This document shows positions 30,384-58,210 of a stretch of 64,000 nt of DNA, piece after piece. Each line of letters starts with the position of its first letter. Position 1 is the first letter of the stretch. The notes beneath the pieces were generated by a model. The model did not search any database and was not told the DNA's origin. It saw only the letters and a program-made list of their open reading frames with translations. The position numbers and the translations under genes are program-made. This DNA is from Arthrobacter sp. MMS18-M83 (lineage in GTDB: Bacteria > Actinomycetota > Actinomycetes > Actinomycetales > Micrococcaceae), in the NCBI RefSeq assembly GCF_026683955.1, contig NZ_CP113343.1, positions 1,054,001-1,118,000 of the forward strand, given 5' to 3'.

Positions 30384-30486
30384 TAGCTGCAAAACCTCAT
30401 GCCTACAACCCTACGTGGGCCGGCGCGGCGTCCCACCCAACTGACTGGCAGTTGTTGTCGTTTTGAGCCGTCAAAACGACTGTGGA

Positions 30487-30555
30487 GTCTCATGACTTAA
30501 TGGACACTTATGTCTCATGACTTCGTGGACAGTGTGTCTCAGGACCTCGTAGACA
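30487..30555. repeat. three tandem internal repeats at the left IS end
   Basis: Units begin at about 30487, 30511 and 30535, each reading GTCTCATGACTTCGTGGAC with a few changes, at a spacing of 24-25 bp. The right end has three units at 31841, 31867 and 31893 in the opposite orientation, spaced 26 bp. They look like multiple transposase-binding sites. Confidence 0.8.
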
Positions 30556-30557
30556 GA

Positions 30558-30597
30558 CGGGGCGGGTTTGCTCTGGTTCATGAGCAAACCCGCCCCG
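30558..30597 (+). promoter_or_regulatory. perfect 16-bp hairpin over the transposase start codon
   Basis: CGGGGCGGGTTTGCTC (30558-30573) pairs perfectly with 30582-30597, leaving the loop TGGTTCAT. The ATG at 30580-30582 begins in the loop and ends in the stem. In RNA this should block initiation, a known way for insertion sequences to limit transposase made from outside transcripts (for example IS10 and IS200). The role here is inferred. Confidence 0.7.
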
Positions 30598-31857
30598 AAG
30601 ATCAGTGTCCGTCATGCCGTTGCTACGTGGCCGGCCGATGCGCCACGCGGTGCCGTGAGCGCGTTCTGCACCGAACACGGTGTCTCGCGTGCCTGGTTCT
30701 ACAAGGTCCGCACGGCGGCCGGACGCGTCGGGCCGGTGAAGGCCCTGGAGATCAAGCGCCCGGTGCCGTTGACCAGCCCGAAAGCCACGGCACCGGCGAT
30801 GGTCGAACTCCTGCTGGCCACCCGGGCGGATCTTGAGGCCAAGGGGCTGGATCACGGCCCGTTGTCGGTAATCGCAAAGCTGTCCCGGCAAGGCTTCGCC
30901 CCGCCGTCCCGGGCGACGGTGGCCAGGATCTTCGACCGGGCCGGTGTCGTGGTGCCCGAGCCGCGGAAGAAGCCCCGCAGCGCCTACCAGCGGTTCGTCT
31001 ACCCGCAACCGAACGCGTGCTGGCAGATCGACGCGACCGAGTGGCGGCTGGCCGACGGGAAGACCGTGGCGGTCTTCCAGCTCCTCGATGACCACTCCCG
31101 CCTGGCCCTGGCCTCCCTGGCGGCCACCGGGGAAACGAGCGAGGCCGCGATCGCCGTCGTCGCCCTGGCCATCGAACGCCACGGCGTGCCGGAGAAATTC
31201 CTCTCCGACAACGGCGCGGCCCTGAACCCGACCCGCCGCGGACGCACCGGCGCACTCGTGGAGTTCCTCAAATCCCACGGTGTGGAACCGATCACCGGCA
31301 GACCGGGCAAACCCACCACCCAGGGCAAGAACGAACGCTTCCACCGCACCCTGCACCAGTACCTGCACCGCCAGCCGCCGGCCCCGTCGATTCCCGTCCT
31401 GCAAGCCCAGATCGATACCTTCGACCACTACTACAACACCGAACGCGAACACCAGGCCCTGCCCGGGGCCCTGACCCCGCAGGAAGCCTGGGACGCGACC
31501 CCGAAAACACCCGCACCGGCCCTCCCGGAACCCGCCATGACCGTCCCGGCACCGGCACGGAGCACGCAACGGCTCGTCAGGAACGACGGCCGCGTTACCG
31601 TGCTGGGAACCGCGTTCAACATCGGCCAGGACCTGGCCGGGAGCACCGTGCACATCGTTTACGACCACGCCGAGATCATGTTCTTCGACACCCGCGGCAC
31701 CGAGATCACCACCCACCCCCTGCCTGTCAAAGGCACCCGCTACGTCGGCAACGGCAAACCCTCAGGCATCGCAGCAGACCCCGCCGGAGCACGCCGGAAA
31801 CGGACACGCTACCCGCGCCTCAAACCACCCACGGACGAAGTGTCCACGAAGTCATGA
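30580..31857 (+). CDS. IS481-family transposase
   Basis: A 425-residue single-frame DDE transposase. An N-terminal helix-turn-helix (AFCTEHGVSRAWFYKVR) is followed by an HTH_21-like part. The rve integrase core has the catalytic triad in QIDATEW, FLSDNGAAL and GKNERFHRTL, and a basic C-terminus follows. ATG 30580 is chosen; TTG 30568 is also in frame. The stop lies inside the first right-end repeat, so gene and binding sites overlap. Confidence 0.92.
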   Translation: MSKPAPKISVRHAVATWPADAPRGAVSAFCTEHGVSRAWFYKVRTAAGRVGPVKALEIKRPVPLTSPKATAPAMVELLLATRADLEAKGLDHGPLSVIAKLSRQGFAPPSRATVARIFDRAGVVVPEPRKKPRSAYQRFVYPQPNACWQIDATEWRLADGKTVAVFQLLDDHSRLALASLAATGETSEAAIAVVALAIERHGVPEKFLSDNGAALNPTRRGRTGALVEFLKSHGVEPITGRPGKPTTQGKNERFHRTLHQYLHRQPPAPSIPVLQAQIDTFDHYYNTEREHQALPGALTPQEAWDATPKTPAPALPEPAMTVPAPARSTQRLVRNDGRVTVLGTAFNIGQDLAGSTVHIVYDHAEIMFFDTRGTEITTHPLPVKGTRYVGNGKPSGIAADPAGARRKRTRYPRLKPPTDEVSTKS

Positions 31858-31968
31858 GACATCAACCGTCCACAAGGTCATGAGACATGAACTGTCCACG
31901 AGGTCCCGAGACATGACAAGCCGTCAAAACGACAACTACTGCGAGCCAGTTGGGCTTGGTGCTGGGGT

Positions 31969-33342
31969 TCAGGCGGGCTTGATGTTTTGGTTCACGTGGA
32001 AGAGGTTTTCTGGATCGTATTTGCCCTTGATGGCTTGCAGCCGCTCGTAGTTGACCCCGTAGTTCTCACTGATCCTGCCCTGATCATCACCGTCCATGAA
32101 GTTGATATAGCCTCCCGGCGAGGAGTACGGGCGCAATGCCGCGGAGTAACTGCGGACCCAGTCGATATTCGCCGCGTTGTCTGCGGGGTCGTTCCACATG
32201 CAGGCGATCACCGGAGAGAACTTGACGCCGCGGTTGACGAATGCGGTGTCCGTCTGGCCCACGCGTTGCACCGCACCGTCGATCGGGTAGACGTGGACGG
32301 ACGTCTGCACGCTCGGAACTTTGCTTCCGTACTCAAGATGGGCCGCAATGGCGCCGTCGTTGAGCTCGGAGAGGAAATCCGCTTTCCAGTAGGCCTGCAT
32401 TCCTTTCGGAAGCAGCGGATCAAATGCCGAGTTGAGTGCCGGGTACGGCATGGGCCCCACCAGCGAACCCGCCACGGGGGCGACATCCAGGAACGGCTGC
32501 CAGCGGGCCGGTCCTTCTCCAGGATCACCGGTCCACATGCCAATGACCACGCAGACTGGTTTTCCGTGCCACTCCTCCGGCAGGAACGGTACGGGAGGCC
32601 CTTGGTGGAAGCCCAGGAACGCCCCGAATTCCTCAGGGGCAGTGTCCATGTAGTCGCGGTAGAACTTCGCAACGGTCTCAGCGTGCTCCATGCCGTAGAT
32701 GATGATCGCAGCGTGGACCATGTCCACGGGGTGCAGCTTGTACTCCAGGGACGTCACTACTCCGAAATTTCCTCCGCCTCCCCGCAGCGCCCACAAAAGA
32801 TCCTCGTTCCGGGTCTCGCTGACGGTCACGAACTTGCCGTCCGCTGTCACCACGTCAGCGGAGATCAGGTTGTCACACGACAGTCCGTGCTTGCGGGCAA
32901 GATAGCCGATGCCGCCACCCAGGGTCAGGCCTGCGATGCCGGTGGACCCCACGATCCCGCCGGTGGTGGCCAACCCGAAGGCATGGGTGGCGTGGTTGAA
33001 ATCTGCCCAGGTCGTTCCCGCTTCGGCACGGGCTGTACCGGCTTCGGGGTCCACACGCACTCCGGTGCGGTTGACGAAATCGATGACAAGGGCATCGTCC
33101 CAGGTCCCGAAACCGGGAGCGCTGTGGCCGCCGCCGCGGATGGCCAAGGGCAGGGAATTGTCCCGGGCGAAATTCACGCTTGCAATGACGTCCGCTACCT
33201 GGGCCACACGGACAACCCCTGCCGGACGTTTGTCGATCATCCCGTTATAGACGGCACGGGCGGAATCATAGTCAGGATCGCTTGGGGTGACGAGTTGCCC
33301 ACGGAGCTGTTCTCGCAGTCCGTCCAGGGCTGTTCCATTCAT
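31969..33342 (-). CDS. BBE-type FAD-binding oxidoreductase
   Basis: A 457-residue flavoenzyme of the berberine-bridge-enzyme group. The PP-loop reads IRGGGHSAPGFG with the histidine that links FAD, and the second linking residue is the cysteine in RKHGLSCDN, so bicovalent FAD is expected. The C-terminal BBE motif NYERLQAIKGKYDPENLF is complete. There is no export signal. Such enzymes oxidize sugars, alcohols or secondary metabolites with oxygen; the substrate here is unknown. Confidence 0.9.
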   Translation of the reverse strand: MNGTALDGLREQLRGQLVTPSDPDYDSARAVYNGMIDKRPAGVVRVAQVADVIASVNFARDNSLPLAIRGGGHSAPGFGTWDDALVIDFVNRTGVRVDPEAGTARAEAGTTWADFNHATHAFGLATTGGIVGSTGIAGLTLGGGIGYLARKHGLSCDNLISADVVTADGKFVTVSETRNEDLLWALRGGGGNFGVVTSLEYKLHPVDMVHAAIIIYGMEHAETVAKFYRDYMDTAPEEFGAFLGFHQGPPVPFLPEEWHGKPVCVVIGMWTGDPGEGPARWQPFLDVAPVAGSLVGPMPYPALNSAFDPLLPKGMQAYWKADFLSELNDGAIAAHLEYGSKVPSVQTSVHVYPIDGAVQRVGQTDTAFVNRGVKFSPVIACMWNDPADNAANIDWVRSYSAALRPYSSPGGYINFMDGDDQGRISENYGVNYERLQAIKGKYDPENLFHVNQNIKPA

Positions 33343-33467
33343 GGGTGTTACCGCCGATTCTCTTCATGAGACCGGAATAGTTCCACCCGCCGCTGCCCCA
33401 CCAGACCAACGGCCGGGGCTTACGTCGTCATGCCTACACCCAGGGCAGCGGCGGCGTCAAGGGTTCA

Positions 33468-33534
33468 CCCAACTGACTGGCAGTCGTTGTCGTTATGAGG
33501 GCTCACAACGACAACAACTGCGAGTTAGTTGGGC
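33468..33534. repeat. 67-bp palindromic repeat, copy 2
   Basis: The sequence begins CCCAACTGACTGGCAG and ends CGAGTTAGTTGGGC, with arms GTTGTCGTTATGAG and CTCACAACGACAAC. The right edge is 10 bases from the stop of the GNAT gene. It matches copies at 30436 and 58151 over almost its whole length. Confidence 0.88.
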
Positions 33535-33544
33535 TAGCCGCCAG

Positions 33545-34519
33545 CTATTCGCTGACTACCAACGTGTCCGGACCACGGAGCTTCGCTTTGCCCAGCTCGA
33601 GCAGCGGATCCACGACTGCGCGCACAGCCGTCATGGAATCGTCCACTTCAAGGAGCACCGGATGCTGGTAGGCAATAAGCGCCAGCAAATCACGGACTGC
33701 CTCGCGGGCCTCGTCATCCTGCAAACGCGGTTCGTGGCCCAGGAACACTTCCGAGGGTTCATCCGAGCTGCCCTGGGCATAGCTGATGGCGAAGGCCTGC
33801 AACTTGCCCTTGCGGGTGGCCGGAACGCCCGAACCAAAAGCACTGGCCTTCGGAGCGCGCAGCACGACGGCACCGTGCGCCCCCGTCAGCTCGTCAAGGA
33901 ACAGCCGCTGCACCGTGGGGATGCCGAGTTCGCCCGGGCTGTCCCAGTGGTGGACTGCGGTGTAGTACCGGCCGACGAGGTCGCTCAGTTCCACGGATCC
34001 CGTGGCGAGGTCTTCAATCTGCTCGGAAGCCGCTTCCTCGGAACCGTCGCCAAACACCGGAAGCCTCAACGGCTCCGGATCCACCACCACAAGCTGTGAG
34101 CGCTGGATGGGCGCGAGCCCTGCCCACTCGGCGAAAGCGGCACCGGAAGTGCCGGGCTCCACCTTGCTGCGCAGCTTGGTAACCCCCGACGGCGACTGTT
34201 CGGCCTCGCGTCGCAGCATGGTGAGGAGCGTGGCCCCTATCCCGCTCCGGCGGTGATCCTTGGCAACCTCGATGTAGGCCCAGAGGCGTTCCGGGTGCAG
34301 GGAAGCTTCGTGGACCACGCCGGCAGCCACCGGGATGCCGATGCCGTCAACAACGTCTTCCGCCACGATGCACCGGCGCCAAGGCTGGCCTTCGCCGCCG
34401 TTGCCCGATGGCGCCAGTGCTGGCCGGAACTGCTGGACCGGCAGGGTCTCTGGCCCACCCCACATTTCCAGGAGCGCCAGATCGTCGCCATCACGCCATT
34501 CGCGGTACTCGATTGACAC
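33545..34519 (-). CDS. GNAT-family N-acetyltransferase
   Basis: A 324-residue protein. The GNAT acetyl-CoA signature lies near residues 85-105 (AYIEVAKDHRRSGIGATLLTML), with the R/Q-x-x-G-x-G/A loop as RRSGIG. The C-terminal half resembles a second, degenerate GNAT lobe. It ends three bases before glyS begins its stop region, and both are on the minus strand, so co-transcription is likely. The acceptor substrate is not predictable. Confidence 0.8.
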   Translation of the reverse strand: MSIEYREWRDGDDLALLEMWGGPETLPVQQFRPALAPSGNGGEGQPWRRCIVAEDVVDGIGIPVAAGVVHEASLHPERLWAYIEVAKDHRRSGIGATLLTMLRREAEQSPSGVTKLRSKVEPGTSGAAFAEWAGLAPIQRSQLVVVDPEPLRLPVFGDGSEEAASEQIEDLATGSVELSDLVGRYYTAVHHWDSPGELGIPTVQRLFLDELTGAHGAVVLRAPKASAFGSGVPATRKGKLQAFAISYAQGSSDEPSEVFLGHEPRLQDDEAREAVRDLLALIAYQHPVLLEVDDSMTAVRAVVDPLLELGKAKLRGPDTLVVSE

Positions 34520-34521
34520 GC

Positions 34522-35907
34522 TTAAGCGCCGATCAGTCGTGCGGCCAAGTAGCCCTCAACCTTGTCGAGCGAGACGCGTTCCTGGCTCATGGTGTCACGC
34601 TCACGGATCGTGACCGCCTGGTCGTCAAGGGTGTCGAAGTCCACTGTGATGCAGAACGGAGTACCGATCTCGTCCTGGCGACGGTAGCGGCGGCCGATTG
34701 CGCCGGCGTCGTCGAAGTCGATGTTCCAGTTCTTGCGCAGCTGGGCGCCCAGGTCCTTCGCCTTCGGGGACAGATCCTCGTTCCGGCTCAGGGGAAGCAC
34801 GGCTGCCTTGACGGGGGCAAGTCGCGGGTCGAGCCTCAGGACAGTGCGGACGTCGACGCCGCCCTTAGTGTTGGGGGCCTCGTCCTCTGTGTAGGCGTCA
34901 ATCAAGAAGGCCATGAAGGAGCGGGTCAGGCCGGCCGCGGGCTCGATTACGTACGGGGTGTAACGCTCATCGGTGGCCTGGTTGAAGTAGCTCAGATCCT
35001 GGCCTGATGCTTTCGAGTGAGTGGTCAGGTCGAAGTCGGTCCGGTTGGCGATGCCCTCGAGCTCGCCCCACTCGGAGCCCTGGAAACCGAAGCGGTATTC
35101 GATGTCCGTGGTGCCTTTGGAATAGTGGCTCAGTTTGTCCAGAGGGTGCTCGAAGAAGCGCAAGTTCTCTGGCCGGATGCCCAGATCGGTGTACCAGGAC
35201 ATGCGTTCCTTCATCCAATACCGGTGCCATTCCTCGTCCGTGCCTGGCTCGACGAAGAATTCCATTTCCATCTGCTCGAACTCGCGGGTACGGAAGATGA
35301 AGTTGCCCGGCGTGATCTCGTTGCGGAAGGACTTGCCGATCTGGCCGATGCCGAACGGCGGCTTCTTGCGCGACGTGGTAAGTACGTTGCTGAAGTTCAC
35401 GAAGATTCCCTGCGCGGTTTCCGGGCGCAGGTAGTGCAGGCCTTCTTCGCTGGTCACCGGCCCGAGGTAGGTCTTGAGCAGGCCGGAGAACTCCTGCGGT
35501 TCGGTCCATTCGCCACGGGTGCCGCAGTTGGCGCAGGCGATGTCCTTGAGGCCGTTTTCGGCCGGACGGCCCTTCTTTTCCTCGTACTCTTCTTCGAGGT
35601 GGTCTGCGCGGTAGCGCTTGTGGCAGGAAAGGCACTCGACCAGCGGGTCCGAGAACACCTCCACGTGGCCGGAAGCTTCCCATACCTGGCGCGGCAGGAT
35701 CACGGAAGAATCCAGGCCAACAACATCCTCGCGGCCACGGACCACGCTCTGCCACCATTGGCGCTTGATGTTTTCCTTCAACTCGGCACCCAGGGGGCCG
35801 TAGTCCCACGCAGAGCGGGAGCCACCATAGATTTCACCGGCCTGGAACACGAAGCCCCTCCGCTTGGAGAGGGAAATGACCTGGTCGAGGACGGATTTTG
35901 CTGCCAT
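34522..35907 (-). CDS. glyS: glycyl-tRNA synthetase (single-chain class II)
   Basis: A 461-residue enzyme that charges tRNA-Gly. Class II motif 2 reads [19 protein letters not shown] and motif 3 is in [13 protein letters not shown]. Zinc-type cysteines occur at CLSCHKRY and CANCGTRG, and [15 protein letters not shown] is characteristic of the alpha2 eukaryal/actinobacterial type. Length is normal. ATG 35907 follows a GGAGT sequence. Confidence 0.97.
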
Positions 35908-35989
35908 GGGTACTCCAATGTTCTACAGGGCCGCTGGGTGCGGTCCGCGGTTGTGCGCGAAGGTAGTGCTTTGCAGGAAGCTGCGTGTC

Positions 35990-37072
35990 CTAGCCTACCG
36001 GCCTTTGGCCGCTGTCCTTCTTCCGGGATTGGCCTGCCTGCCCCCGGACGGAACCGCGGGAAGCGAGCGCACCCCTCGGCCAAGGCAACGTGGCCACGAT
36101 AATGGCGGACAGCGTCAACAAGGTGCCGAGGACCGTGGGCAAGGCCACCACCGTTCCGGGTGCCGGGACGACCAGGTCCAGCGCGAGCGATCCGAGCAAC
36201 TGCCCGGCGATCATCCCCAGCCCCGTCACCAGGACACCCAGGCTGCGGACCAGCAAGGCCGCGAGCCCGATGAAGACGCACCCCATGGGCCCGCCCAGGT
36301 AGTACCACCATTCAGCAGGCAGGGCGTGGCCGGGACCTACCAGAAGCAGTTTGATGAGCCAGGCGACCCAGAGGATGACTGCTCCGGCGACGAAGTTCAC
36401 CAGAGTGGCGGCGATGGGGCTGCCGTAATGCACGGTCGCTGTGCCGTTCATGGCTTGCTGGAAACTCATGAGGCAGCCCGCCACGACCGGCAACAGGATG
36501 GGGAGCACCAAGGATCCGACGTCGGTGGCCGCCCCGAGGCGCGGCGAGACGGCCCAGACGACGGCGGCAATCGTCAGGACGCTACCGAGGATCCGGACAC
36601 CGGTGATCGAACGCTTGCCGCCCGGCCCGATGCCGAGCCGGTCCACGAGCAGTCCGCTAAGGGTTTGACCCGTCACTGCGGCGACCGTGAAGAGGGCCAC
36701 CCCGAGCAAGCCAACGGTGAACGATTGGGCAAACACGAAAAGGGCGCCGATCCCGCCTGCCAGGACGTAGAACCGCGGGAAGCTGCGCTCCTTGAGGGCG
36801 GGCAGGATCTGCCGCAGGGCGGCGCGGCCCTTGGGGACCGCCAGTCCGATCGCGGCGATCAGTACCAGCCCGGTGGTGAAGCTCACGACGGCGGCCGCGA
36901 TCCCGTCGTCGAGCGTTGCTCCCAGCGCCCCGTTGATCCGGCCCTGAAGGGGAATCACAAGTCCAGTGGCCACGGCAAGTAGCAGGCCGGTGAGCAAGGG
37001 AAGGGAAGTTCGGGAGGTACTTCGGGAAGTACTTCGGGAGGCAGGGCGGGACGATGGCGGCACTTTCACCAC
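35990..37072 (-). CDS. DMT-family (DUF606/YdcZ-like) transporter
   Basis: A 360-residue membrane protein built of two five-helix halves, each beginning with a PLQGRINGALG- or SFQQAMNGTATVHYGSP-type segment, which marks the YdcZ/DUF606 group. The N-terminus has a Ser/Arg repeat (SRSTSRSTSRTS) encoded by three 12-bp DNA units at 37009-37044. Starts GTG 37072 and GTG 37069 are both possible. The substrate is unknown. Confidence 0.8.
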   Translation of the reverse strand: MVKVPPSSRPASRSTSRSTSRTSLPLLTGLLLAVATGLVIPLQGRINGALGATLDDGIAAAVVSFTTGLVLIAAIGLAVPKGRAALRQILPALKERSFPRFYVLAGGIGALFVFAQSFTVGLLGVALFTVAAVTGQTLSGLLVDRLGIGPGGKRSITGVRILGSVLTIAAVVWAVSPRLGAATDVGSLVLPILLPVVAGCLMSFQQAMNGTATVHYGSPIAATLVNFVAGAVILWVAWLIKLLLVGPGHALPAEWWYYLGGPMGCVFIGLAALLVRSLGVLVTGLGMIAGQLLGSLALDLVVPAPGTVVALPTVLGTLLTLSAIIVATLPWPRGALASRGSVRGQAGQSRKKDSGQRPVG

Positions 37073-37096
37073 CCTACTTCAGGCATCATTGCTTGT

Positions 37097-37327
37097 ATGA
37101 GCAACCCGGAAATTCAAGAAATCCCCATCCGCGACGACATGATCCGCCTCGGCCAGCTCCTGAAGCTCGCCAACCTGGTGGAGGACGGCGTGGAGGCCAC
37201 CGAGCTCATCAAAAACGGGCTGGTCAAAGTCAACGGAGAGATCGACGATCGACGCGGCCGCCAGCTCCATGCAGGCGACACTGTGACCGTCAACGGACAA
37301 ACCGTGCGGATCATCACGGAGTCCTAG
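37097..37327 (+). CDS. S4-domain RNA-binding protein
   Basis: A 76-residue protein consisting almost only of an S4 RNA-binding fold: IRLGQLLKLANLVEDG, TELIKNGLVKVNGE, RRGRQLHAGDTV. It resembles E. coli YbcJ and the YaaA-type proteins, thought to bind structured RNA. It is divergent from the DUF606 transporter, with only 24 bases between starts. Its stop directly abuts a perfect 65-bp palindrome. Confidence 0.9.
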   Translation: MSNPEIQEIPIRDDMIRLGQLLKLANLVEDGVEATELIKNGLVKVNGEIDDRRGRQLHAGDTVTVNGQTVRIITES

Positions 37328-37392
37328 GCAACGCGGGGTCACTTATGGCCCATTACGTGCCTCAGAATGGGCCATAAGTGACCCCGCGTTGC
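37328..37392. terminator. perfect 27-bp stem palindrome between two convergent stops
   Basis: Arms 37328-37354 and 37366-37392 are perfectly complementary over 27 bases (beginning GCAACGCGGGGTCACTTATG) around an 11-base loop. It starts on the base after the S4 gene stop and ends two bases before the esterase stop, so it probably ends both transcripts, although there is no T-run. Its sequence is unrelated to the 67-bp repeat. Confidence 0.75.
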
Positions 37393-37394
37393 TT

Positions 37395-38048
37395 TCAGAG
37401 GGACGTGAGGACCTTGTGCTCCAGGAATTCGCCCACGTGGCCGATTTCCTGCTGGTTGATGCCGTGCCACATGCCGGTGTAGAGCACCTTGGTAAGGTCC
37501 GTGTGCTTCCGGACCCACCCTATGGTGTATTCGATCTTGTCCGGGGTAATGACTGGATCCTGCTGGTCCCTTCCCCAGAAGAGCGGCACCGAACCGTCCA
37601 GTTCGGCGTCGCGGAACGTGGGGTCGGCATCGGCGTCGACCGCGAAGCCTGAAAGCCCGACGACGGCGGCAAAGTCCGCCGGCCGCTGCCGGAGCAGTGA
37701 GGTGGCCATAGCCATGCCCATGGAGAACCCGAGGAGCGTCACCGAACTGTGGTTGGACTTGAACGGGTCCAACCAGGAAAACACATACTCGGCTGCGGCC
37801 TTGACGGCGTCGAGCGAGTAGTCGATGGACGCAGTGAGCGGGAACCACGTGAAGCCCGGGCCGGTGGCGATCGGGGCGCGGAGCGAGGCGACGACGAACT
37901 CCTGGGGCAGCAGGCTTGCGAGGCTAAAAAGGTCTTGCTCGTTGGATCCATAACCGTGCAACAGGACCAGCAACGGCTTTCCAGCCCGTTCCTCCTCTTC
38001 GTGGGACCACAAAACGACCGGGGCGGGAAAGGCGGAAGCTTGACTCAT
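37395..38048 (-). CDS. alpha/beta-hydrolase, carboxylesterase-like
   Basis: A 217-residue cytoplasmic esterase of the YpfH/phospholipase-carboxylesterase type. LLVLLHGYGSNEQDL holds the oxyanion loop, LLGFSMGMAMA the nucleophile serine, DPVITPDK the aspartate and GMWHGI the histidine. ATG 38048 is chosen because upstream frame extension to 38366 has no coding character. The substrate is unknown. Confidence 0.87.
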   Translation of the reverse strand: MSQASAFPAPVVLWSHEEEERAGKPLLVLLHGYGSNEQDLFSLASLLPQEFVVASLRAPIATGPGFTWFPLTASIDYSLDAVKAAAEYVFSWLDPFKSNHSSVTLLGFSMGMAMATSLLRQRPADFAAVVGLSGFAVDADADPTFRDAELDGSVPLFWGRDQQDPVITPDKIEYTIGWVRKHTDLTKVLYTGMWHGINQQEIGHVGEFLEHKVLTSL

Positions 38049-38117
38049 GGGACTATTCTTACAGTTACCCATGAGTAACAAGCTACGGGCGCGTAGCGTT
38101 GCAGCAAAAGGCGGGAT

Positions 38118-38960
38118 ATGGACGTGAGTGACACTGATTCCACGGTGGGGCATGGCTCGGATGAGCGGATTCATCCGTGGACCCGCTACGTGGCTTTGGG
38201 TGATTCGTTTACCGAGGGCATCGGCGACCCCGAGCCCAACAGTCCGGGCGGACATCGCGGCTGGGCTGACAGGGTGGCCGAGGAACTGAGCCGCGGTCAC
38301 AGCGATTTCGCCTACGCCAACCTGGCGATCCGGGGGCGCCTGCTCCAGCAGATCGTGGACGAACAACTTGGCCCGTGCATGGACCTCAAGCCGGACCTCG
38401 TAAGCATCTCCGCAGGCGGCAACGACCTCATTCGTCCCGGTGGCGATCCCGATGCCCTGGCCGAGAAACTCGACGCCACGGTACAGACCCTGAGTTCCGA
38501 AGGCGCCACCGTGGTTCTATTCAACGGCCCGGACACCGTGTCGTCGGTTCTTGGGCGGATCCGCGGCAAGGTTGCCATCTACAACGAGAACCTGCGGACT
38601 GTAGCCGCACGCCATGACGCCGTGGTGGCGGATATGTGGTCCCTGCGGCAACTTTCCAACTCGCAGATGTGGGATGAAGACCGCCTTCATTTCTCGCCAC
38701 TTGGCCACCACACGATCGCCACCATGGTCCTCGATTCCCTCAACGTTCCGCATAATCTCGAGCCGCTCCAGCCCAAGCCGCTCCCACAGCGCAGCTGGCG
38801 GGAAGCGCGCTCCGGCGACTTCGTGTGGGCACGGGAGTATTTTGTTCCGTGGGTCATCCGCCGGATCCGGCACCAATCCTCCGGCGACGGGATCCTGCCA
38901 AAACGCCCGACGCCGGGACCCGTCTTCGGTCCGGCCGACTCCGTTTTGCCCCGAAACTGA
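38118..38960 (+). CDS. SGNH/GDSL-family hydrolase
   Basis: A 280-residue esterase or lipase-like protein. Block I is VALGDSFTEGIGDP, block III reads SISAGGNDLIRP and block V has the catalytic D-H pair in DRLHFSPLGHH. There is no signal peptide, so it is intracellular. It is divergent from the esterase at 37395. Substrates of this family range from acyl esters to acetylated sugars. Confidence 0.88.
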   Translation: MDVSDTDSTVGHGSDERIHPWTRYVALGDSFTEGIGDPEPNSPGGHRGWADRVAEELSRGHSDFAYANLAIRGRLLQQIVDEQLGPCMDLKPDLVSISAGGNDLIRPGGDPDALAEKLDATVQTLSSEGATVVLFNGPDTVSSVLGRIRGKVAIYNENLRTVAARHDAVVADMWSLRQLSNSQMWDEDRLHFSPLGHHTIATMVLDSLNVPHNLEPLQPKPLPQRSWREARSGDFVWAREYFVPWVIRRIRHQSSGDGILPKRPTPGPVFGPADSVLPRN

Positions 38961-40545: not shown

Positions 40546-40585
40546 TCGTTGACACCTCACATCGCGCTTGCCCGCCGCCAACAAA

Positions 40586-40674
40586 GCGAAGGGCCAGGTC
40601 TTCACCCGGGGCACCCCACCGCGAGAGGAGGGTTGCCGGCCAGCAAGCCGGGGCTGTCACTGGCACTCATGACC
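40586..40674 (-). ncRNA. SAM-IV riboswitch
   Basis: On the minus strand the leader of metX reads GGTCATGAGTGCCAG, then CCCCGGCTTGCTGGCCGGCA, ACCCTCC, GCGGTGGGGTGCCCCGGGTG and GACCTGGCCCTTCGC. These blocks match the SAM-IV core as I know it from actinobacterial metX and metY leaders (a shared SAM-I-like pocket plus extra pseudoknot stems). Ends are approximate. Confidence 0.88.
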
Positions 40675-50366: not shown

Positions 50367-50404
50367 TCAATCGCACAAGGATCGCGGAGAGCTGTGGGCT
50401 CGTC

Positions 50405-50444: not shown

Positions 50445-50464
50445 TTGATGTCGCGGAGATGGCT

Positions 50465-51688
50465 TTACAGCGCGCGGACTCCAGCCCGCCATACCGCGAA
50501 GGTCAGCGGGATACCGGGGCGGTAGGCCAAGTGGGTGGCCGACGGTGCCTTGAGCATGTGGAGGTCTGCACGGTGCCCGACGGCGATCGAGCCCACCGCC
50601 CGCTGGCCGTCGACGTCGTTGCCCCACTCCCTGCCGAGCGCGAGTGCGCCGCCGTAGGTTGCGGCCCGGACAGCTTCGTGGACGCTCAGGCGCATCTGCA
50701 ACACCGCCGTGGTGACGCAGAAGGCCATCGAGCTCGTATAGGAGGTGCCGGGGTTGCAGTTCGCGGCCAAGGCAATCTGCACCCCGGCGTCGATCAACGC
50801 ACGGCCCGGGGCGAGCGGCTGGCGGGTGGAGAGATCGCAAGCAGGCAGGCAGGTAGCCACGGTGCCGCGGGTGCCCGTTCCGGTCGCAGCGTCCCAGCCG
50901 CTCCACGTCCCCGCGAGCGCCTGGATGTCGGCCTCGGAAAGGTAGTTGACGTGGTCGACGCTGGCCGCGCCGAACTCCACGGCCAACTGGACACCGGGCC
51001 CTTCACCCAACTGGTTGCCGTGGACGCGCAGGCCCAGGCCCGCATCCCGGCAGGCCGACAGCACGCGGCGCGACTGTTCCTCGGTGAAGGCCCCTCGCTC
51101 GCAGAAAACATCGGCCCAGCCCACGTAGGGGCGGACGGCGTCGAGCATCGGGCCGCAGACGAGGTCCGTGTACTCCTCGGCATCGGTTCCGGCCGGCACC
51201 AGGTGGGCGCCCAGATAGGTGACTTCGTCCACGGTGGCAGCGGCGATGCGGGCGCTGCGGGCCTCGTTCTCCAGGTCCAGTCCGTAGCCGGTCTTGCTCT
51301 CCAGGTAGGTGGTGCCTTGGGAGACGGCTTCAGCTACGCGTCCGGCGGCTAGGCGGGTCAGTTCCTCGTCGCTTGCGGCACGAGTGGCGCCGGTAGTGAC
51401 GGCGATGCCACCGGCGCTGTAGCTCTGGCCGGCCATCCTGGCCTCGAATTCGGCGGTGCGGTCTCCAGCGAAAATCAGGTGCGAATGCGAATCCACCCAG
51501 CCCGGAAGCACGGCGCGGCCCTCAGCGTCCACGTGCTCGTCAGCGGCGGGAGCCTCGGCCGCGGGGCCGATCCAGGAGATCCGCTCACCGTCGATCACCA
51601 CGGCGGCGTCTTTGAGGACGCGATGCTCCACGTCCTGGGTCATCAATTCGCCGATGTTGCTGATCAGTGTGCTCGTCTGCCCGCTCAT
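50465..51688 (-). CDS. hutI: imidazolonepropionase
   Basis: A 407-residue amidohydrolase of histidine degradation that opens 4-imidazolone-5-propionate to formiminoglutamate. Metal site HSHLIFAGDR, LRVHGNQLG, DHVNYLS and ANCNPGTSYT are diagnostic. ATG 51688 is used, just after the stop of the FAD oxidoreductase at 51700. hutU and hutH are not in the window, so other hut genes lie elsewhere. Confidence 0.95.
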   Translation of the reverse strand: MSGQTSTLISNIGELMTQDVEHRVLKDAAVVIDGERISWIGPAAEAPAADEHVDAEGRAVLPGWVDSHSHLIFAGDRTAEFEARMAGQSYSAGGIAVTTGATRAASDEELTRLAAGRVAEAVSQGTTYLESKTGYGLDLENEARSARIAAATVDEVTYLGAHLVPAGTDAEEYTDLVCGPMLDAVRPYVGWADVFCERGAFTEEQSRRVLSACRDAGLGLRVHGNQLGEGPGVQLAVEFGAASVDHVNYLSEADIQALAGTWSGWDAATGTGTRGTVATCLPACDLSTRQPLAPGRALIDAGVQIALAANCNPGTSYTSSMAFCVTTAVLQMRLSVHEAVRAATYGGALALGREWGNDVDGQRAVGSIAVGHRADLHMLKAPSATHLAYRPGIPLTFAVWRAGVRAL

Positions 51689-51699
51689 GAACCTATTGT

Positions 51700-52797
51700 T
51701 CAACGGCGGATGGACCAACGGGCAGCGGCAAGCTCCCTAGGTGTCCGGGATACCGGACTGACGCCGGATATGGAGCCCAGGATCTCGGCGGCCGCCAGCT
51801 CGGCAATGGCCGAGGAAGTCTGGAAACCATAGCCGCCTTGGCCCGCGAGCCAGAAGAAGCCGGGAGCCTCGGCATCGAAACCCACCACCGGGACGCCGTC
51901 GGCGGCCTCCGTGCGCAATCCGGTCCAGGCCTTGGCCACGGAGCGAATGCCCATTGATGTCAGCGAGTTCAGCCGGGCAACGAGCTCTTCCACGTCCCCC
52001 GGCCGCGGCTGCGCGTCTTCCGGGCCGCTCGGCACCGTCTCCGACGGCGAAATAAGCACCTGCCCGCCTTCCGGCCGGAAATAGTAGGAATCATCCGCTG
52101 CCGCCACCATGGGGCTTCCCGGCGGAAGGGGGCGTTCGACGTCGACAATCGCCGCCGTGCGGCGGAACGGCTGCAAGCCCAGCTTTTCCACCCCGCTGAG
52201 CACCGCGAGTTCGTCCGCCCAGGCACCGGCGGCGTTGACGACGACGGCGGACTGGAAGCCTTCCAGCCCGGCGCCCAGTTGCCAGCCAGAGCCCAGGCGT
52301 TGGGCCGAATGGACCCGGGCGCCGGTGATGATGTCCGCTCCCCCGGCTTCGGCACGTTGCCGATGGTCCTCCAGCAACACGGGCGCATTGCAGGCGAATG
52401 ATCCGGTATCCAGACCTGCGGCAGTGAAGGACTCCGGGTTGAGGGCCGGGCACAGTTCAAGGGCTTCGGCGTGCGTGATGGCATGCATATGGCCACTGGC
52501 CTCTGCCTTGACCGTTGCTTCGTCGCCCACCAACATGAACGAGCGCGGGGCCAGCACCGGCACCGGCAACACGGCGTCGCGGGCCGCCAACAGTTCCAGA
52601 GTTCGGACGGTGAGTTCCTGCACGACGGCGGGTCCGTAGCTCGGAATCAGCTGCCGGGCCGAGCGGGACGACGTGTGGTAGGCCAGCGTTTGTTCGGCCT
52701 CCACGAGGGCCACCGAACAGTGACCGGCCAGCGCCGAGGCCAGGGACAATCCGGCGATGCCGCCTCCGACAATTACCACGTCATAGTTTGCAGCCAT
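51700..52797 (-). CDS. FAD-dependent (DAO-type) oxidoreductase
   Basis: A 365-residue D-amino-acid-oxidase-fold enzyme: dinucleotide motif DVVIVGGGIAGLSLASALA, VVNAAGAWADEL and a C-terminal WLAGQGGYGFQTS. Active-site basics in HTSSRSARQL are like glycine/sarcosine oxidases and D-amino-acid dehydrogenases. It lies 11 bases before hutI, so the two are likely co-transcribed and it may act on an amino acid or derivative linked to histidine breakdown (inference). Confidence 0.85.
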   Translation of the reverse strand: MAANYDVVIVGGGIAGLSLASALAGHCSVALVEAEQTLAYHTSSRSARQLIPSYGPAVVQELTVRTLELLAARDAVLPVPVLAPRSFMLVGDEATVKAEASGHMHAITHAEALELCPALNPESFTAAGLDTGSFACNAPVLLEDHRQRAEAGGADIITGARVHSAQRLGSGWQLGAGLEGFQSAVVVNAAGAWADELAVLSGVEKLGLQPFRRTAAIVDVERPLPPGSPMVAAADDSYYFRPEGGQVLISPSETVPSGPEDAQPRPGDVEELVARLNSLTSMGIRSVAKAWTGLRTEAADGVPVVGFDAEAPGFFWLAGQGGYGFQTSSAIAELAAAEILGSISGVSPVSRTPRELAAARWSIRR

Positions 52798-52830
52798 CCC
52801 TCCATCCTGTCAGCGCGGAGGCTCGGACGC

Positions 52831-52875
52831 GAGGGGAGCAGTTGCGAGAGGATCAGTTGCGAGGGGAGCGGTTGC
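52831..52875. repeat. three 15-bp tandem repeats
   Basis: Units GAGGGGAGCAGTTGC, GAGAGGATCAGTTGC and GAGGGGAGCGGTTGC run head to tail in the gap between the flavin oxidoreductase start and the end of the PPOX gene. Purpose unknown; slippage or a regulatory array are both possible. Confidence 0.75.
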
Positions 52876-52890
52876 GGGCGTCCAGCCGCA

Positions 52891-53361
52891 CTACTCCACC
52901 GCGGACGGCTTAATCCCGCTGTACGGCGTCCACCAGGTCAGCGGCTCCGTGACTGTGAAGCGCCGTCCCGAGATCGAGTCCGCCGGAATCCGGACGAAGT
53001 GGTCCTTCCGGCCGGCTTCCCACGGAAACAGGGGCAGCGAGAACGAGTTGACGACGTCGTCGATCTGTTTGACGGGCGCTGCTTTGCCATGGAGCACGAC
53101 CCTCCATGCGACTCCGGTGTTCGCATCGACGCCGTCCACCTCCATGGCCACCGGGAATTCGCCCATGGCTGCGGTGAGCTTGGTGCCCGCCCCGGTTCTG
53201 AAGACAACCGTCCCCTGGTCCACGGCGTAGTTGATGGGGAAAATGTCGGGGTGGTCTCCAAGCCACACCGCCAGCCGGCCGACGGACACGCCCCTCAAGA
53301 GACTCCAGCATTGCTGGGAATCCAACACCTCGGTGCGAGGTTGTGCTGCATCTTTGTCCAT
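52891..53361 (-). CDS. pyridoxamine-5'-phosphate-oxidase-like FMN-binding protein
   Basis: A 156-residue split-barrel protein (PPOX family, Pyridox_ox_2 type): CWSLLRGVSVGRLAVWLGD, FPINYAVDQGTVVFRTGAG and a C-terminal WWTPYSG. Such proteins bind FMN or F420 and often carry stress or detoxification roles; true PNPO activity is unlikely. No partner gene suggests the substrate. Confidence 0.8.
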   Translation of the reverse strand: MDKDAAQPRTEVLDSQQCWSLLRGVSVGRLAVWLGDHPDIFPINYAVDQGTVVFRTGAGTKLTAAMGEFPVAMEVDGVDANTGVAWRVVLHGKAAPVKQIDDVVNSFSLPLFPWEAGRKDHFVRIPADSISGRRFTVTEPLTWWTPYSGIKPSAVE

Positions 53362-53410
53362 GCTGCCGATCCTAGGCCTCTGGCCCTTCCCGGGACAGGG
53401 CTTTGGGGGT

Positions 53411-54811
53411 TCAGCGCAGGTATTGGAGCTGACTGAAGTGGCTGATGTAGCTATCCAAAAGCTCTTGCGCCACTCTGACCGAGTCCACCAAGGGGTTCAT
53501 GGCCAGCGCCTTGTAGGCCGAGCGCCGGGAACCGGTGAGCGCAGCGTCGATTGTGGCGCGTTCCACGGCCTTTGCGTTGATGACGAGTCCCCGGGCGTAG
53601 TCCGGCAAGGCCTTCGCCGGGAGCAAGCGGACTCCACCGGCATCCACCAAGCAGGGTGCCTCGACGACGGCGTCGGCGTCGAGCTCAGCCAAGGTGCCGT
53701 TATTTGGGACGTTCAGGATCAGGCGCGCAGTTTCCCCCTGGCTGATGGCCCGCATAATGCCCAGGGCAACGGTCTCGTAGCCGCCGGACACCAGGTCCGC
53801 GGCGTCGCGTTCGAAGGTACCGGCCGCGTCCCTGTTGCTCTGCATATACGTCTCTTCGCGATCCAGCTTGGTCTTCTCCCAGAGCCGCAGGGCAGCCTTC
53901 GAGGAAGGCTCCCGCAAAGTTGGCCCCGCACCGCCGTCGTTCGCTTCCCCTAGCCCGCCGTAAAACGACGATTGCTGCCGCGCCAAGTAAGCGCCGCGGC
54001 TGCTCGCGGCGCGTCGATCGGCGTCGAGCGCTTCGCGCGTGAAGTAGTAGTAGTGCAGATACTCGTTGGGAACCGCGCCAAGGGCCTGAATCCACGGCGC
54101 GCCGAACAACCGGCCCTCTTCAAAGGACTCGATGGCGTCCGGGTCGGCCAGGAGGCGCGGCAAGACGTCCTCACCGTCAACCACTAGCCCACGCAGCCAG
54201 CCCAGGTGGTTCAGCCCGATGTAGTCGATCCCCACGGATCCATCGCGGAAGGCCATGGCGCCGCGGTGGATTCCGGCCGCACTCAAGGCGCGCCGGGCCA
54301 GCCCCACCGGCGAATCGCAGATCCCCACCACTTTGCGGCCAAGGACTCCCATCATGACCTCGGTGATGACGCCCGCCGGATTGGTGAAGTTGATGAACCA
54401 GGCGTCCGAGGCATGCTTCTTCACCGCCTCGGCAATGTCCAGGACAACCGGAATGGTCCTGAGAGCGTAGGAAATTCCCCCGGCGCCCACGGTCTCCTGC
54501 CCGATGACCCCATGCTCGAGCGCAATCCGCTCATCGGCGGCGCGTCCCTCCAAACCACCTACCCGAATGGCGGAAAAGATGAAGTCCGTGCCCGGAAGCG
54601 CCTCCGACAACTCCGTGAACCTGCGGACTGCCGGCGCATCCGGCACCCCCTCGGCCATGTCGGCGAGGACCCTGGCCATCACGCCTAGGCGCGCGGGGTC
54701 GGCGTCGAACAGCCTGAGTTCCGTGACGCGGCCCGGTTCATAGTCCGCCAGCAGTGCCGAATAGACCAAGGGAACCCGGAATCCCCCGCCGCCCAGGATG
54801 GTGAGGATCAT
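53411..54811 (-). CDS. GH4-family 6-phospho-beta-glucosidase
   Basis: A 466-residue NAD- and metal-dependent glycosidase. The Rossmann start is ILTILGGGGFRVPLVYSAL, the metal cysteine is in VGICDSPVGL, the metal histidine is in GLNHLGWLRG, and NFTNPAGVITE is the family asparagine loop. Phospho-beta-glucosidase is the best fit, alpha-type less so. No PTS genes are adjacent, so the phosphorylated substrate source is not visible here. Confidence 0.9.
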   Translation of the reverse strand: MILTILGGGGFRVPLVYSALLADYEPGRVTELRLFDADPARLGVMARVLADMAEGVPDAPAVRRFTELSEALPGTDFIFSAIRVGGLEGRAADERIALEHGVIGQETVGAGGISYALRTIPVVLDIAEAVKKHASDAWFINFTNPAGVITEVMMGVLGRKVVGICDSPVGLARRALSAAGIHRGAMAFRDGSVGIDYIGLNHLGWLRGLVVDGEDVLPRLLADPDAIESFEEGRLFGAPWIQALGAVPNEYLHYYYFTREALDADRRAASSRGAYLARQQSSFYGGLGEANDGGAGPTLREPSSKAALRLWEKTKLDREETYMQSNRDAAGTFERDAADLVSGGYETVALGIMRAISQGETARLILNVPNNGTLAELDADAVVEAPCLVDAGGVRLLPAKALPDYARGLVINAKAVERATIDAALTGSRRSAYKALAMNPLVDSVRVAQELLDSYISHFSQLQYLR

Positions 54812-54817
54812 CGGAAC

Positions 54818-56013
54818 TCAGAGCCCCGCGGCGGCGCGGCTCTTCACGAAGGCCTGGACACACGCCTCGACGTCCTCGGAGCTGTGCGCTGCCGAGAGCT
54901 GCACACGGATCCGGGCGGCTCCCTTGGGTACCACGGGATAACTGAATGCCGTGACGAAGACTCCGTGGTGGAGCATTTCGTCGGCTACCTTCGCGGCCAC
55001 CACGGCGTCGCCGAACATCACCGGAATGATGGCATGTTCGCCGTCGAGGAGTTCGAAGCCTTCCTCGCTCATGCGACGGCGGAACAGGGCGGCGTTGTCA
55101 AAGAGCCTGGAGCGGAGCTCGCCGGAGCCCTGGACGAGTTCAATGGCCTTGATGGTGGCTGCAACGATTGCCGGCGCCAAGGAGTTGGAGAACAGGTACG
55201 GGCGGGCCTTCTGACGCAGCATGGCGACGATTTCGCGGCGGCCGGAAACGTAACCGCCGGAAGCGCCGCCGAGGGCCTTGCCGAACGTGCCGGTGTAAAT
55301 ATCGACCCTGCCGGAGACGCCTGCGTGTTCCGGGGTTCCGGCGCCGGTGGCTCCCATGAAGCCGACGGCGTGGGAGTCGTCCACCATGACCAGTGCGTCG
55401 TGCTTTTCCGCGAGATCGCAGACGGCCGCAAGCGGGGCGAGGTAACCGTCCATGGAGAAGACCCCGTCCGTCACAATGATCTTGCGGCGGGAACCCGCGG
55501 CCTCAAGCAGTTTGGCTTCGAGATCGGCCATGTCCCGGTTGGCGTAGCGGAAGCGCTTGGCCTTGCTGAGCCGGATGCCGTCGATGATGGAGGCGTGGTT
55601 CAGGGAATCCGAGATGATGGCGTCCTCAGGCCCGAACAGGGACTCGAACACTCCCCGTTGGCGTCGAAACAGCTGGAGAACAGGATGGTGTCCTCGGTTC
55701 CCAGGAACTCGGAGACCCGGGCTTCCAGCTCAAGGTGCAGGTCCTGGGTGCCACAGATGAAACGGACGGAGGCCATGCCGAAGCCGCGCTCGTCCATGGC
55801 GGCCTTGGCGGCGGCAATGATGTCCGGGTGGTCCGCCAGTCCAAGGTAGTTGTTGGCGCAGAAGTTCAAGACGGTATTGGCGGGCTGGCCGAGCTGGCCG
55901 GCCGAGATGTGGCTGGCCTGCGGCGAGTCAATGTGGCGTTCGGTCTTGAAGAGTCCCGCAGCGCGGATCTCTTCCAGCTCGCCCTGCAGCTGGTCTTTGA
56001 TGCTTGAGTACAT
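54818..56013 (-). pseudogene. kbl: 2-amino-3-ketobutyrate CoA ligase, frameshifted
   Basis: The N-terminal part ([20 protein letters not shown]... to CFDANG) and the C-terminal part ([20 protein letters not shown]... to the stop at 54818) together make a normal Kbl of about 398 residues. They are in different frames, joined at a G4 run near 55657-55661; one extra G gives [13 protein letters not shown]. The PLP lysine in [15 protein letters not shown] is intact. Kbl cleaves 2-amino-3-ketobutyrate to glycine and acetyl-CoA after Tdh. The break may be true inactivation or a sequencing error; intact neighbour tdh favours error. Confidence 0.85.
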
Positions 56014-56057
56014 TGGTGGCTCCTGGTACTGGGTCTTGGGGAGGACTTTACGGCGTC

Positions 56058-57104
56058 TTAGATTTCGGTCCAGTCGAGGACTACCTTGCCGCCTGAGCCG
56101 GCACGAGCGATCTCGAAGCCCTTTTCCCAGTCGGTAGCGGACAGCTTGTCCGTCACGACGGCGGAAATGTTGCGGTGCAGTATGGGATTGGAGGACAGCA
56201 TGGCACTCATGGCGTACCAGGTCTCGTACATCTCGCGGCCGTAGATGCCCTTGAGGGTCAGCATGTGGGTGACCACTTTGGCCCAGTCGATGTCGATGGA
56301 CTGGCTGGGCAAGCCAAGCATGGCGATGCGTCCGCCGTGGTTCATGTTGTTGATCATCTCAGGCAGGGCCGTGGGATGCCCGGACATTTCCAGGCCGATG
56401 TCGAATCCTTCGCGCATGCCAAGCTCGCGCTGGGCATCCTTGACGCGCATTTTGGAGACATCCACGGCGAGGTCAACGCCCATCTTCCGGGCCAGCTCAA
56501 GCCGCGGGGCGGACACGTCAGTGATGGCAATCTTGCGGGCACCGGCGTGGCGCGCGACGGCGATTGCCATGAGTCCGATGGGTCCCGCACCGGTGATGAG
56601 CACATCCTCGCCGACCAGCGGGAAGCTCAGGGCGGTGTGGACGGCGTTGCCGAAGGGGTCGAAGATGGCGCCGAGCTCCGGGGTGACGGAGGGATCGTGG
56701 TGGACCCAGACATTGGTCTCCGGGATGACGACGTATTCGGCGAAGGCGCCATCCCGCTGCACGCCGACGGACACCGTGTGGATGCACATCTGCCGGCGCC
56801 CGGCGCGGCAATTGCGGCAGATTCCGCAGACCACGTGGCCTTCACCGGAAACGCGGTCGCCGACCTTGACGTCGCGGACGTCCTCTCCCACGGCCACCAC
56901 TTCGCCGTAGAACTCGTGGCCCGCAATCAGCGGCGCCTCGATGATGCCCTGTGCCCAGGCGTCCCAGGACTGGATGTGCAGGTCCGTTCCGCAAATACCG
57001 GTAGTCATGACGCGGATCTTGACGTCGCTGGGGCCGGCCTCCGGCTCGGGACGTTCGACGAGTTCAAAACCGGCGTGTGCTCCGGACTTGTAGAGAGCCT
57101 TCAT
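56058..57104 (-). CDS. tdh: L-threonine 3-dehydrogenase
   Basis: A 348-residue zinc alcohol dehydrogenase-family enzyme that oxidizes L-threonine to 2-amino-3-ketobutyrate. Catalytic zinc ligands are in [13 protein letters not shown] and GHEFYGEV, the structural zinc cysteines in [15 protein letters not shown], and the NAD fold in [15 protein letters not shown] 57104 (MKALYKSG) has AGGAAG upstream. It is in an operon with kbl, 44 bases apart, with a divergent LysR gene. Confidence 0.95.
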
Positions 57105-57203
57105 GGGTCTTCCTAACTCAGGGGGTGGGCCGTTTGTGTGCCGTTTCACTTCATTGAAGCCCCACGAACGGTTTAGCACAACTAGGTTTTTCTCAATCAA
57201 CGA

Positions 57204-57219
57204 TTTAGCATTTACTAAA
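57204..57219. promoter_or_regulatory. TTTAG-N6-CTAAA inverted repeat at the lysR start
   Basis: TTTAG at 57204-57208 and CTAAA at 57215-57219 form an inverted repeat that ends on the A of the LysR gene ATG. A related GTTTAG lies at 57169-57174. Binding here by the regulator would repress its own gene and could govern the divergent tdh-kbl operon, as LysR-type proteins often do. Confidence 0.4.
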
Positions 57220-58150
57220 TGGAAGTACACCAGCTCCAGATGCTCAGGGAACTAGGAGATCTCGGCAGTGTCAAGGCCGTAGCAGAGACCCTCATGGTCA
57301 CACCGTCTGCCGTCTCCCAACAGCTCGCGCTCCTGCAGAAGTCCGTCGACGTGCCCCTGACGCGCAAGGAGGGCCGGGCCTTGGTGCTCACGGATGCGGG
57401 CAGGGTTCTCGCCGACGCCGGAGCCGCCGTCGTGAACGCGCTCGCCGACGCCCGGGCTGCGATCGGCGCTTACCACGACTCCCCGGGTGCCACCGTGACC
57501 GTGAGCGCCTTCCACAGTGCGGGGCAGGCCCTGTTCGCTCCGCTTGCGGCCTTGCTCGCCACTGCCGGCAGCGCGGGTGCGGAACGCGGCGTCCCCCGCT
57601 TGAAACTCGCCGACGAGGACGTCGCACAAGAGGACTTTCCCGGACTCGCGGCGCGGTACGACCTCGTCCTCGCGCATCGGATGGAGAACAGTCCGGAGTG
57701 GCCCACCGACAAGGTGGCTGTGATCCCGCTCGCCGACGAACCGCTCGACGTCGCGTTGCCCGCCGGGCACCCGCTAGCCGCACGCCGCGAACTCAGGCCG
57801 GCCGACGTCGTCGGGCAGACTTGGGTGACCAGCCGCGCAGGCTACTCCCCCGCAGACGTGCTGGCCGCCGTCGTCGCCGTCAGCGGGCGCCCCGCGGACG
57901 TCCTCCACCGCATCAACGACTACTCCACAGTGGCCTCGCTCGTGGCAGCCGGTGGGGCGATTGGTTTGCTCCCCGGTTCACTGCCCGGCGCGTGCTGGAT
58001 GCGGGGGTGGTCCTGCGTCCGCTGGCCGGGGTCAATTCCGTGCGGAAAATCGACATCCTGGCAAGGCCGGAAACCCTGAAGCGGAAATCGGTCATAACGG
58101 TCTGCGAAGCGCTCCAGACCGTCATGACCGAACTCGCCGGGTCTACTTAG
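57219..58150 (+). pseudogene. LysR-family regulator, frameshifted near its C-terminus
   Basis: The LysR HTH is residues 1-60 ([34 protein letters not shown]) and the effector domain follows. The frame is lost at a C4 run near 57971-57974; the original frame ends at 58079 with a non-conserved tail. One added C gives GLLPRFTARRVLDAGVVLRP, then VNSVRKIDILARPETLKRKS and a stop at 58150, for 310 residues. As divergent neighbour of tdh-kbl it is the likely regulator of threonine breakdown. Real decay and sequencing error are both open. Confidence 0.8.
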
Positions 58151-58210
58151 CCCAACTGGCAGGCAGTTGTTGTCGTTATGAGGCCGTATAACGACAACAA
58201 CTGCGTGGGC
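58151..58210. repeat. 67-bp palindromic repeat, copy 3 (shortened)
   Basis: It begins on the base after the restored LysR stop, CCCAACTGGCAGGCAG, with arms GTTGTTGTCGTTAT and ATAACGACAACAAC and end GCGTGGGC. The outer right arm is missing some bases compared with copies 1 and 2. It lies between convergent genes. Confidence 0.85.

Follow-up and report, generated by a model that had tools for sequence, protein, structure and literature searches.

A dispersed 66-bp palindrome adjoining stop codons in Arthrobacter sp. MMS18-M83

The window analysed here, a 64,000-nucleotide stretch of Arthrobacter sp. MMS18-M83 DNA (positions 1054001-1118000 of a 5.07-Mb contig), contains a genuine palindromic repeat. 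It is dyad-symmetric with a unit of 66 bp (2 x 33), and the family occupies 77 places on the chromosome. The best explanation, to which we give an even chance, is a U-less 3'-end hairpin that serves both strands, is mobile by stem-loop exchange with no involvement of a REP-associated tyrosine transposase (RAYT; REP, repetitive extragenic palindrome), and has a half-site that is read by its sequence. According to this explanation a palindrome of 60-72 bp would take the place of the terminator hairpin at gene ends across the bacterial family. It would act on both strands without a U-tail, ending or insulating transcripts and protecting the 3' end, and its conserved 33-bp half-site CCCAACTRRCTCGCAKTWRNTGTCGTTWTGAGN, used twice, would be recognised by a protein. 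It would relocate by swapping with a resident stem-loop and not by an insertion that makes duplications, the mover being something other than a RAYT. A role in termination or insulation is most likely, judging from the position and structure of the copies.

Copies at gene ends

The 77 places are the sum of 70 found with a covariance model (E<=0.1; two of them partial) and seven that are split by an insertion sequence (IS). The model was built from 23 copies and used to score 150 of 1146 first-look candidates, giving 139 matches counting both strands; a decayed copy at 1715839 is left out of the total. The edge of the unit is set by the pairing: farther out than base 33, counted from the centre, just 23-41 of 99 copies are still paired. 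The original prediction, made from the window, described three copies of a selected repeat adjoining stop codons. That number is true for the stretch but not for the chromosome, and the refuting outcome named in advance, three copies only and no stop bias, did not arise in the genome-wide model search and the stop distances.

After removal of the two partial copies 68 loci were examined, and 65 of these have a called gene on each side. Genes were called with a codon-usage script that places start codons roughly. A stop codon lies within 30 bp of the palindrome in 57 of the 65 copies and within 50 bp in 60, which together with the 77 places bears out the predicted selection next to stops. The gene pairs are convergent in 25 cases, tandem in 37 and divergent in three. 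The room for a 66-mer in the spacers of the window is 645 bp in convergent, 3706 bp in tandem and 560 bp in divergent pairs (13%, 75% and 11%), a small baseline of 50 gene pairs. Where the genes are in tandem, the palindrome is closer to the upstream stop (a median of 13 bp away) than to the downstream start (96 bp) in 34 of 37 cases. Of the 25 convergent pairs, 20 have at most 33 bp of spacer left beside the palindrome. Three of the 68 loci overlap a called open reading frame (ORF) by more than 20 bp; the others are located in spacers. In 12 copies the upstream frame enters the palindrome by 9 bp and terminates at its CCC-AAC-TRR. The idea that this in-arm stop (CCC AAC TRR) is itself selected was considered and rejected. 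TGG is seen 18 times against 25 expected here, and 5 against 17.5 in genome G012, which belongs to another species, but the selection is not supported because AA, also a stop, is likewise rare in G012.

Integron attC sites are palindromic, follow stop codons and carry RYYYAAC/GTTRRRY boxes. The CCCAAC..GTTGGG ends of the palindrome, its stop-proximal position and a single three-copy cluster in 1.8 kb recall such sites. The copies are otherwise single and scattered, with no cassette arrays, and the spacing of the boxes differs by eye; that the palindromes are attC sites is hardly credible. The cluster (3264227-3266044, L073-L075) is situated near successive genes and is the only tight one, the next closest spacing being 2.6 kb.

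The hairpins have no U-tail. Among the 118 ends of 59 copies only two are followed by at least five T in 10 nt, and the background is 1.5%, so the earlier statement that there is no T-run and hence no ordinary terminator holds. The median fold of the 59 copies is -39 kcal/mol. As in U-less (I-shaped) terminators, a stable hairpin lies within 50 bp of a stop, in 60 of 65 copies. The I-shaped terminators of mycobacteria (PMC12288462) are also hairpins free of a U-tail, up to 50 bp from the stop in a GC-rich actinobacterium, but the accessible part of that paper describes no dispersed repeat family of a single sequence such as the palindrome here.

The model has matches in 36 of 37 genomes of the genus, own genome included, and in one of 22 genomes taken from elsewhere in the order. 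The number per genus genome ranges from 0 to at least 85 with both strands counted. In a sample of the family, comprising 197 genomes from 32 genera, 39 genomes match (E<=1e-4), 12 from the own genus and 27 from 11 of the 31 other genera. Copies from six of these 11 genera (g28, g29, g40, g45, g47 and g49) have arm sequences of their own and a similar size class of 60-72 bp. The copies studied from other genera are the 60 best-scoring, found with a base-pair model that favours well-paired copies, and one off-centre copy (L243) was dropped. For 50 of them with genes on both sides the setting is convergent in 22, tandem in 26 and divergent in two, and a stop is found within 30 bp in 35. On plasmids four places were found, in two records of one Arthrobacter (E<=0.001); in phages there was no match at E<=0.001.

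In the window, copy 2 is intact, with all 66 bp of the palindrome at 33468-33533, located 11 bp past the stop, at 33545, of a minus-strand gene with a sub-threshold acetyltransferase match (33545-34519). Its fold of -44.4 kcal/mol (z -8.65) is not reached by any of 200 shuffles. Copy 1, predicted as two pieces, is present in both but is one palindrome, split by an IS481-like IS with a 15-bp target duplication. The left piece (30436-30480) ends in the first copy of the duplication (30466-30480), and the right part (31919-31954) consists of the second copy (31919-31933) and the right palindrome piece (31934-31954). The stop of a minus-strand FAD-linked oxidoreductase gene (31969-33342) faces copy 1 at 14 bp (stop at 31969). 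Copy 3 (58151-58205) is a hybrid that retains the left arm, the loop and the inner right arm, while the outer right arm is replaced by a second interspersed repeat, TGGGCCCACGCC..CAGGGTTCCCTGGCCGAGCTTGCGAG (TGGGCCCACGCCGCCAGGGTTCCCTGGCCGAGCTTGCGAG; 58206-58245, plus strand). It folds at -33.7 kcal/mol (z -4.73), again lower than 200 of 200 shuffles. A LysR-type regulator gene (57219-58079, plus strand) and a GFO/IDH/MocA oxidoreductase gene (58265-59539, minus strand) converge on it. None of the three copies is assigned a strand. The predicted coordinates were present for copy 2, for both pieces of copy 1 and for the start of copy 3 at 58151, but the unit is 66 bp and not 67. The predicted stop distances of 13, 10 and 0 were essentially right for copies 1 and 2; the 0 for copy 3 uses an ORF (57698-58150) with no Pfam or NCBIfam match at E<=0.001, and the LysR-type gene, read in a different frame, stops 71 bp short of the copy.

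Conserved half-site and pairing of the arms

The alignment comprises 59 of the 70 places, 11 with fewer than 23 of 33 pairs being dropped. Bases 9, 10, 12 and 19-21 from the centre are invariant in all 118 half-sites. Variation is much greater at bases 1-4, 6, 14-16, 18, 22, 25 and 26, where the two arms have similar base mixes. In G012 bases 7-13 and 19-21 are invariant in 80 of 80 half-sites (40 copies). When 23 orthologous copies are compared between the own genome and G012, 41-48% of the comparisons show a difference at bases 14, 25 and 26.

Covariation between the arms is weak at best in the own genome, though not nil. The variable columns of the 59 copies give 1573 Watson-Crick pairs where 1553 are expected (z 1.85), and for the alignment of 23 copies the observed paired fraction is attained by 23 of 500 shuffles. 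Restricted to the outer 27 bases, the z score is 2.15 here (reached by 32 of 2000 shuffles) and 2.66 in G012 (6 of 2000); for all 33 bases in G012 it is 1.08. The 23 orthologous pairs have 115 positions changed in one arm and 42 changed in both, 16 of the 42 being paired before and after, counts that are inflated by a few pairs matching better when flipped. Three such pairs (L295/L002, L305/L054 and L306/L026) align better with one member flipped, which hints at inversion in place or at replacement. Because covariation is weak, the pairing appears to stem mainly from the presence of the conserved half-site twice. In the own genome and G012 the palindrome therefore reads like a sequence-specific half-site used in duplicate, and since its sequence is conserved beyond positionwise pairing, it is probably read by a protein.

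In some of the other genera the arms do covary. Measured on 46 of 59 copies with clear anchors, top-scoring ones that favour pairing, covariation is strong in g49 (z 7.1; seven copies, 65 of 70 matches against 39 in shuffles) and g45 (z 9.0; 10 copies, 130 of 140 against 94). It is moderate in g28 and g40 (z about 3) and weak in g29 and a second g40 type (z about 2; five and three copies), and in g47 the copies are nearly identical so that it is not measurable. The predicted maintenance of pairing through arm changes is thus seen strongly in g49 and g45, whereas at the variable columns here pairing is barely above shuffles, which comes close to the second refuting outcome named in advance, changes in the arms that disrupt pairing at random.

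A half-site of this kind could also belong to a DNA site bound by a protein of chromosome organisation or of recombination. Such a site would be a dyad of two 33-bp half-sites, its contact blocks spaced by roughly one helical turn, and would be kept at gene ends only because it does least harm there. The conservation comes in blocks (CCCAACT, CT, GCA, TGTCGTT) with weak covariation, and it favours a period of 10-11 bp (p 0.005 in the own genome and 0.02 in G012, which are not independent; for any period p = 0.04 and 0.17). The origin half of the chromosome is richer in copies and holds 56 of the 77 places here (dnaA at 2.497 Mb) and 55 of the 78 best-scoring copies in G012 (origin at a DnaA-like protein at base 1, named from its translation), with few around the terminus in both genomes; this excess may just mirror an older, more conserved chromosome half. 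Against such a site, the core sequence changes between genera while position and palindromy persist, the arms covary strongly in g49 and g45, and the stops are hugged more closely than avoidance of harm requires, as in the 34 of 37 tandem spacers. We regard a chromosomal protein site as possible but unlikely. The palindrome may be a nucleoid or gyrase site, as was also suggested from the window, a suggestion that the analysis moves in neither direction.

Turnover, exchange and mobile elements

Exchange of stem-loops is suggested by the comparison of orthologous gene ends. The end of hisF with its conserved convergent gene was located in 30 of 31 genomes, and 25 spacers were anchored. Six of these carry the 66-bp family, three in the usual form and three with different middle arms. 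The others have a GCAACGCGGGGTCAC palindrome, a GGGCCCACGCC repeat or a GGTTGAGCCTGTCGAAACC repeat, U-tailed hairpins (G007, G010 and G023), other hairpins (an ordinary one in G011) or little structure (G013 and G029). Of 40 random copies from the 78 best-scoring in G012, 25 share their place with an own copy (23 intact pairs and two that are IS-split in the own genome), two face a copy-less spacer here, three align partly and 10 match no locus compared. The two copy-less spacers hold a different stem-loop (z -3.5 and -5.0).

No target duplication was found around 99 copies; the best 2-mer excess was 14 against 6.8, among 200 settings. The absence of duplications and the varied hairpins at orthologous ends fit an exchange of stem-loops, and stem-loop replacement is, on these sequence comparisons, the likeliest route of spread. 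Transposition of this kind is the model put forward for IS1272 (PMC5678879), where, as far as the accessible text goes, a palindrome is exchanged without target duplication at a target chosen by structure; here the exchange is inferred. IS1272 is autonomous and has a transposase gene, whereas the palindrome here is gene-less.

The sharp ends of the palindrome, its genus-specific sequence and its very different numbers in the genomes of the genus would also suit a miniature inverted-repeat transposable element (MITE), that is, two terminal inverted repeats joined directly to each other and mobilised, with ordinary insertion, by the transposase of a DDE element that has the same ends. Ordinary insertion agrees poorly with the missing duplications and with the two spacers compared, which were swapped and not interrupted. 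Half-site matches point the same way. The 100 listed of 105 in the own genome all belong to known or IS-split copies except one, and the IS481-like element is the only one flanked by half-sites among them. The exception, at 1715839, was considered as a lone half-site and proved to be a decayed palindrome. A MITE is an improbable origin of the family.

Movement by a RAYT, as for REPs, was among the possibilities raised in the original prediction and has to be given up almost entirely. The palindrome resembles REPs and their composite BIMEs (bacterial interspersed mosaic elements) in being extragenic, present in many copies and a landing site for an IS (PMC3733652, PMC1525189). The Y1 transposase domain (PF01797) has no match in the own genome and matches in one of 61 genus genomes, compared with five of 14 control genomes, yet the repeat is present in 36 of the 37 genus genomes searched. 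REPs are 20-40 bp and mostly carry a GTAG or CGTC tag according to the available part of PMC3733652, while this palindrome has 66 bp and a symmetric half-site without GTAG head or CGTC end tag. The REPs with CGTC are likewise described there as lacking a known transposase. A RAYT-moved REP is very improbable.

Several points weigh against a terminator-replacing hairpin that spreads by exchange. For five of the 65 copies the nearest stop is more than 50 bp away. In a simple scan U-tailed hairpins are rare in this genome in any case, at none of 51 other gene ends and at four of the 71 oriented towards a copy, and the proposal that the palindrome replaces terminators therefore leans on stem-loops in general and on the relatives. 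Spacers evolve fast, which blurs the difference between replaced and diverged beyond recognition, and the copy-less sites compared are two. No transposon with half-site ends was found among 100 of the 105 own-genome matches (at most one mismatch), IS1182-type transposases not being searched for.

The palindrome core is the sole landing site of the IS481-like element within this genome. The element in copy 1 (30481-31918, plus strand) has a transposase ORF at 30568-31857 and ends TGTGGAGTCTCATGACTT...GAGACATGACA. Its eight genomic copies (L087-L094) are 99-100% identical and are all inserted at one palindrome position. Seven are flanked by a 15-bp duplication; the eighth, L090, shares its right flank with L089 as far as the palindrome end, as if recombined. 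For two of these insertion sites the orthologous palindrome in G012 is uncut. The transposase matches PF00665 (rve) over the cut-off and NF033577 with E 2e-54, at 184.9 bits against a cut-off of 224. For relatives of the IS 52 of 80 loci were examined, 39 had parsed ends and 31 were kept (duplication of at least 13 bp, 12 of 22 end bases). Their duplications are 13-16 bp, 13 being the imposed lower limit, and 21 have 15 bp. The idea that this group of IS targets hairpins at large was rejected: four of the 31 relatives are inserted in some other palindrome, and strict targeting therefore looks like a trait of this IS. Three related IS481-like elements in other genera (L178, L180 and L153) have a duplication centred as a palindrome's loop.

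Targeting of one repeat by an IS is also known for IS1397, IS621 and ISPa11, with all six ISPa11 and all seven ISPpu9 copies so placed (PMC1525189). The REP-targeting elements belong to the IS3, IS110, IS4, IS256 and IS5 families, and IS481 is not mentioned in the available part of that paper; the element here is IS481-like with a 15-bp duplication.

Related repeats and the wider reading

The repeat joined to copy 3 meets a palindrome arm at or near one point in six places (58151, L043, L050, L056, L059 and L081), and forms tandem arrays behind hisF in G003 and G009. Another palindrome family, GCAACGCGGGGTCACTTA..TAAGTGACCCCGCGTTGC, is represented in the window at 37328-37392 (no strand assigned), with 27-nt arms that are 100% complementary and an 11-nt loop. 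It fills the spacer of a convergent pair, a position like that of the 66-bp palindrome, and is also found at L041 (833-897), L014 and L047 and behind hisF in several species. Of the Rfam families searched in the window from 30000 to 58500, only the SAM-IV riboswitch attains the cut-off, scoring well over it at 40559-40674 on the minus strand; copy 2 matches a microRNA model far under the cut-off.

Ypal/RU-2 of Yersinia (PMC2229807) is, like the palindrome here, a dispersed non-coding repeat into which upstream genes can read, and its targets are located at or next to dyad symmetry. As described in the accessible text it is about 168 bp long with duplications of 3-26 bp and internal inverted repeats, while the present unit is 66 bp, has no duplications and is palindromic throughout. 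No description of the 66-bp palindrome family was found in the limited collection of papers searched; the RepRanger paper (PMC12306157), in the part available, merely tabulates a palindrome count for one Arthrobacter. A dispersed 3'-end palindrome as IS target is known. What sets this family apart is that it has no RAYT, that its versions are specific to genera and that an IS481-like element specialises in it.

A wider proposal is a superfamily of gene-less mobile palindromes that serve their hosts as terminators, with a co-evolving reader driving the genus-specific sequences. This proposal is tentative and rather doubtful as it stands. If it is true, new copies would displace resident stem-loops, the host would retain a working 3' end and the element would escape the cost of insertion.

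The family bears on how transcripts are ended without U-tails in GC-rich actinobacteria and on how palindromes spread without a RAYT. With dozens of natural copies, unrelated hairpins at orthologous sites and genus-specific versions, both questions are testable, and the IS481-like element is an IS with a single, sequence-defined target in this genome.

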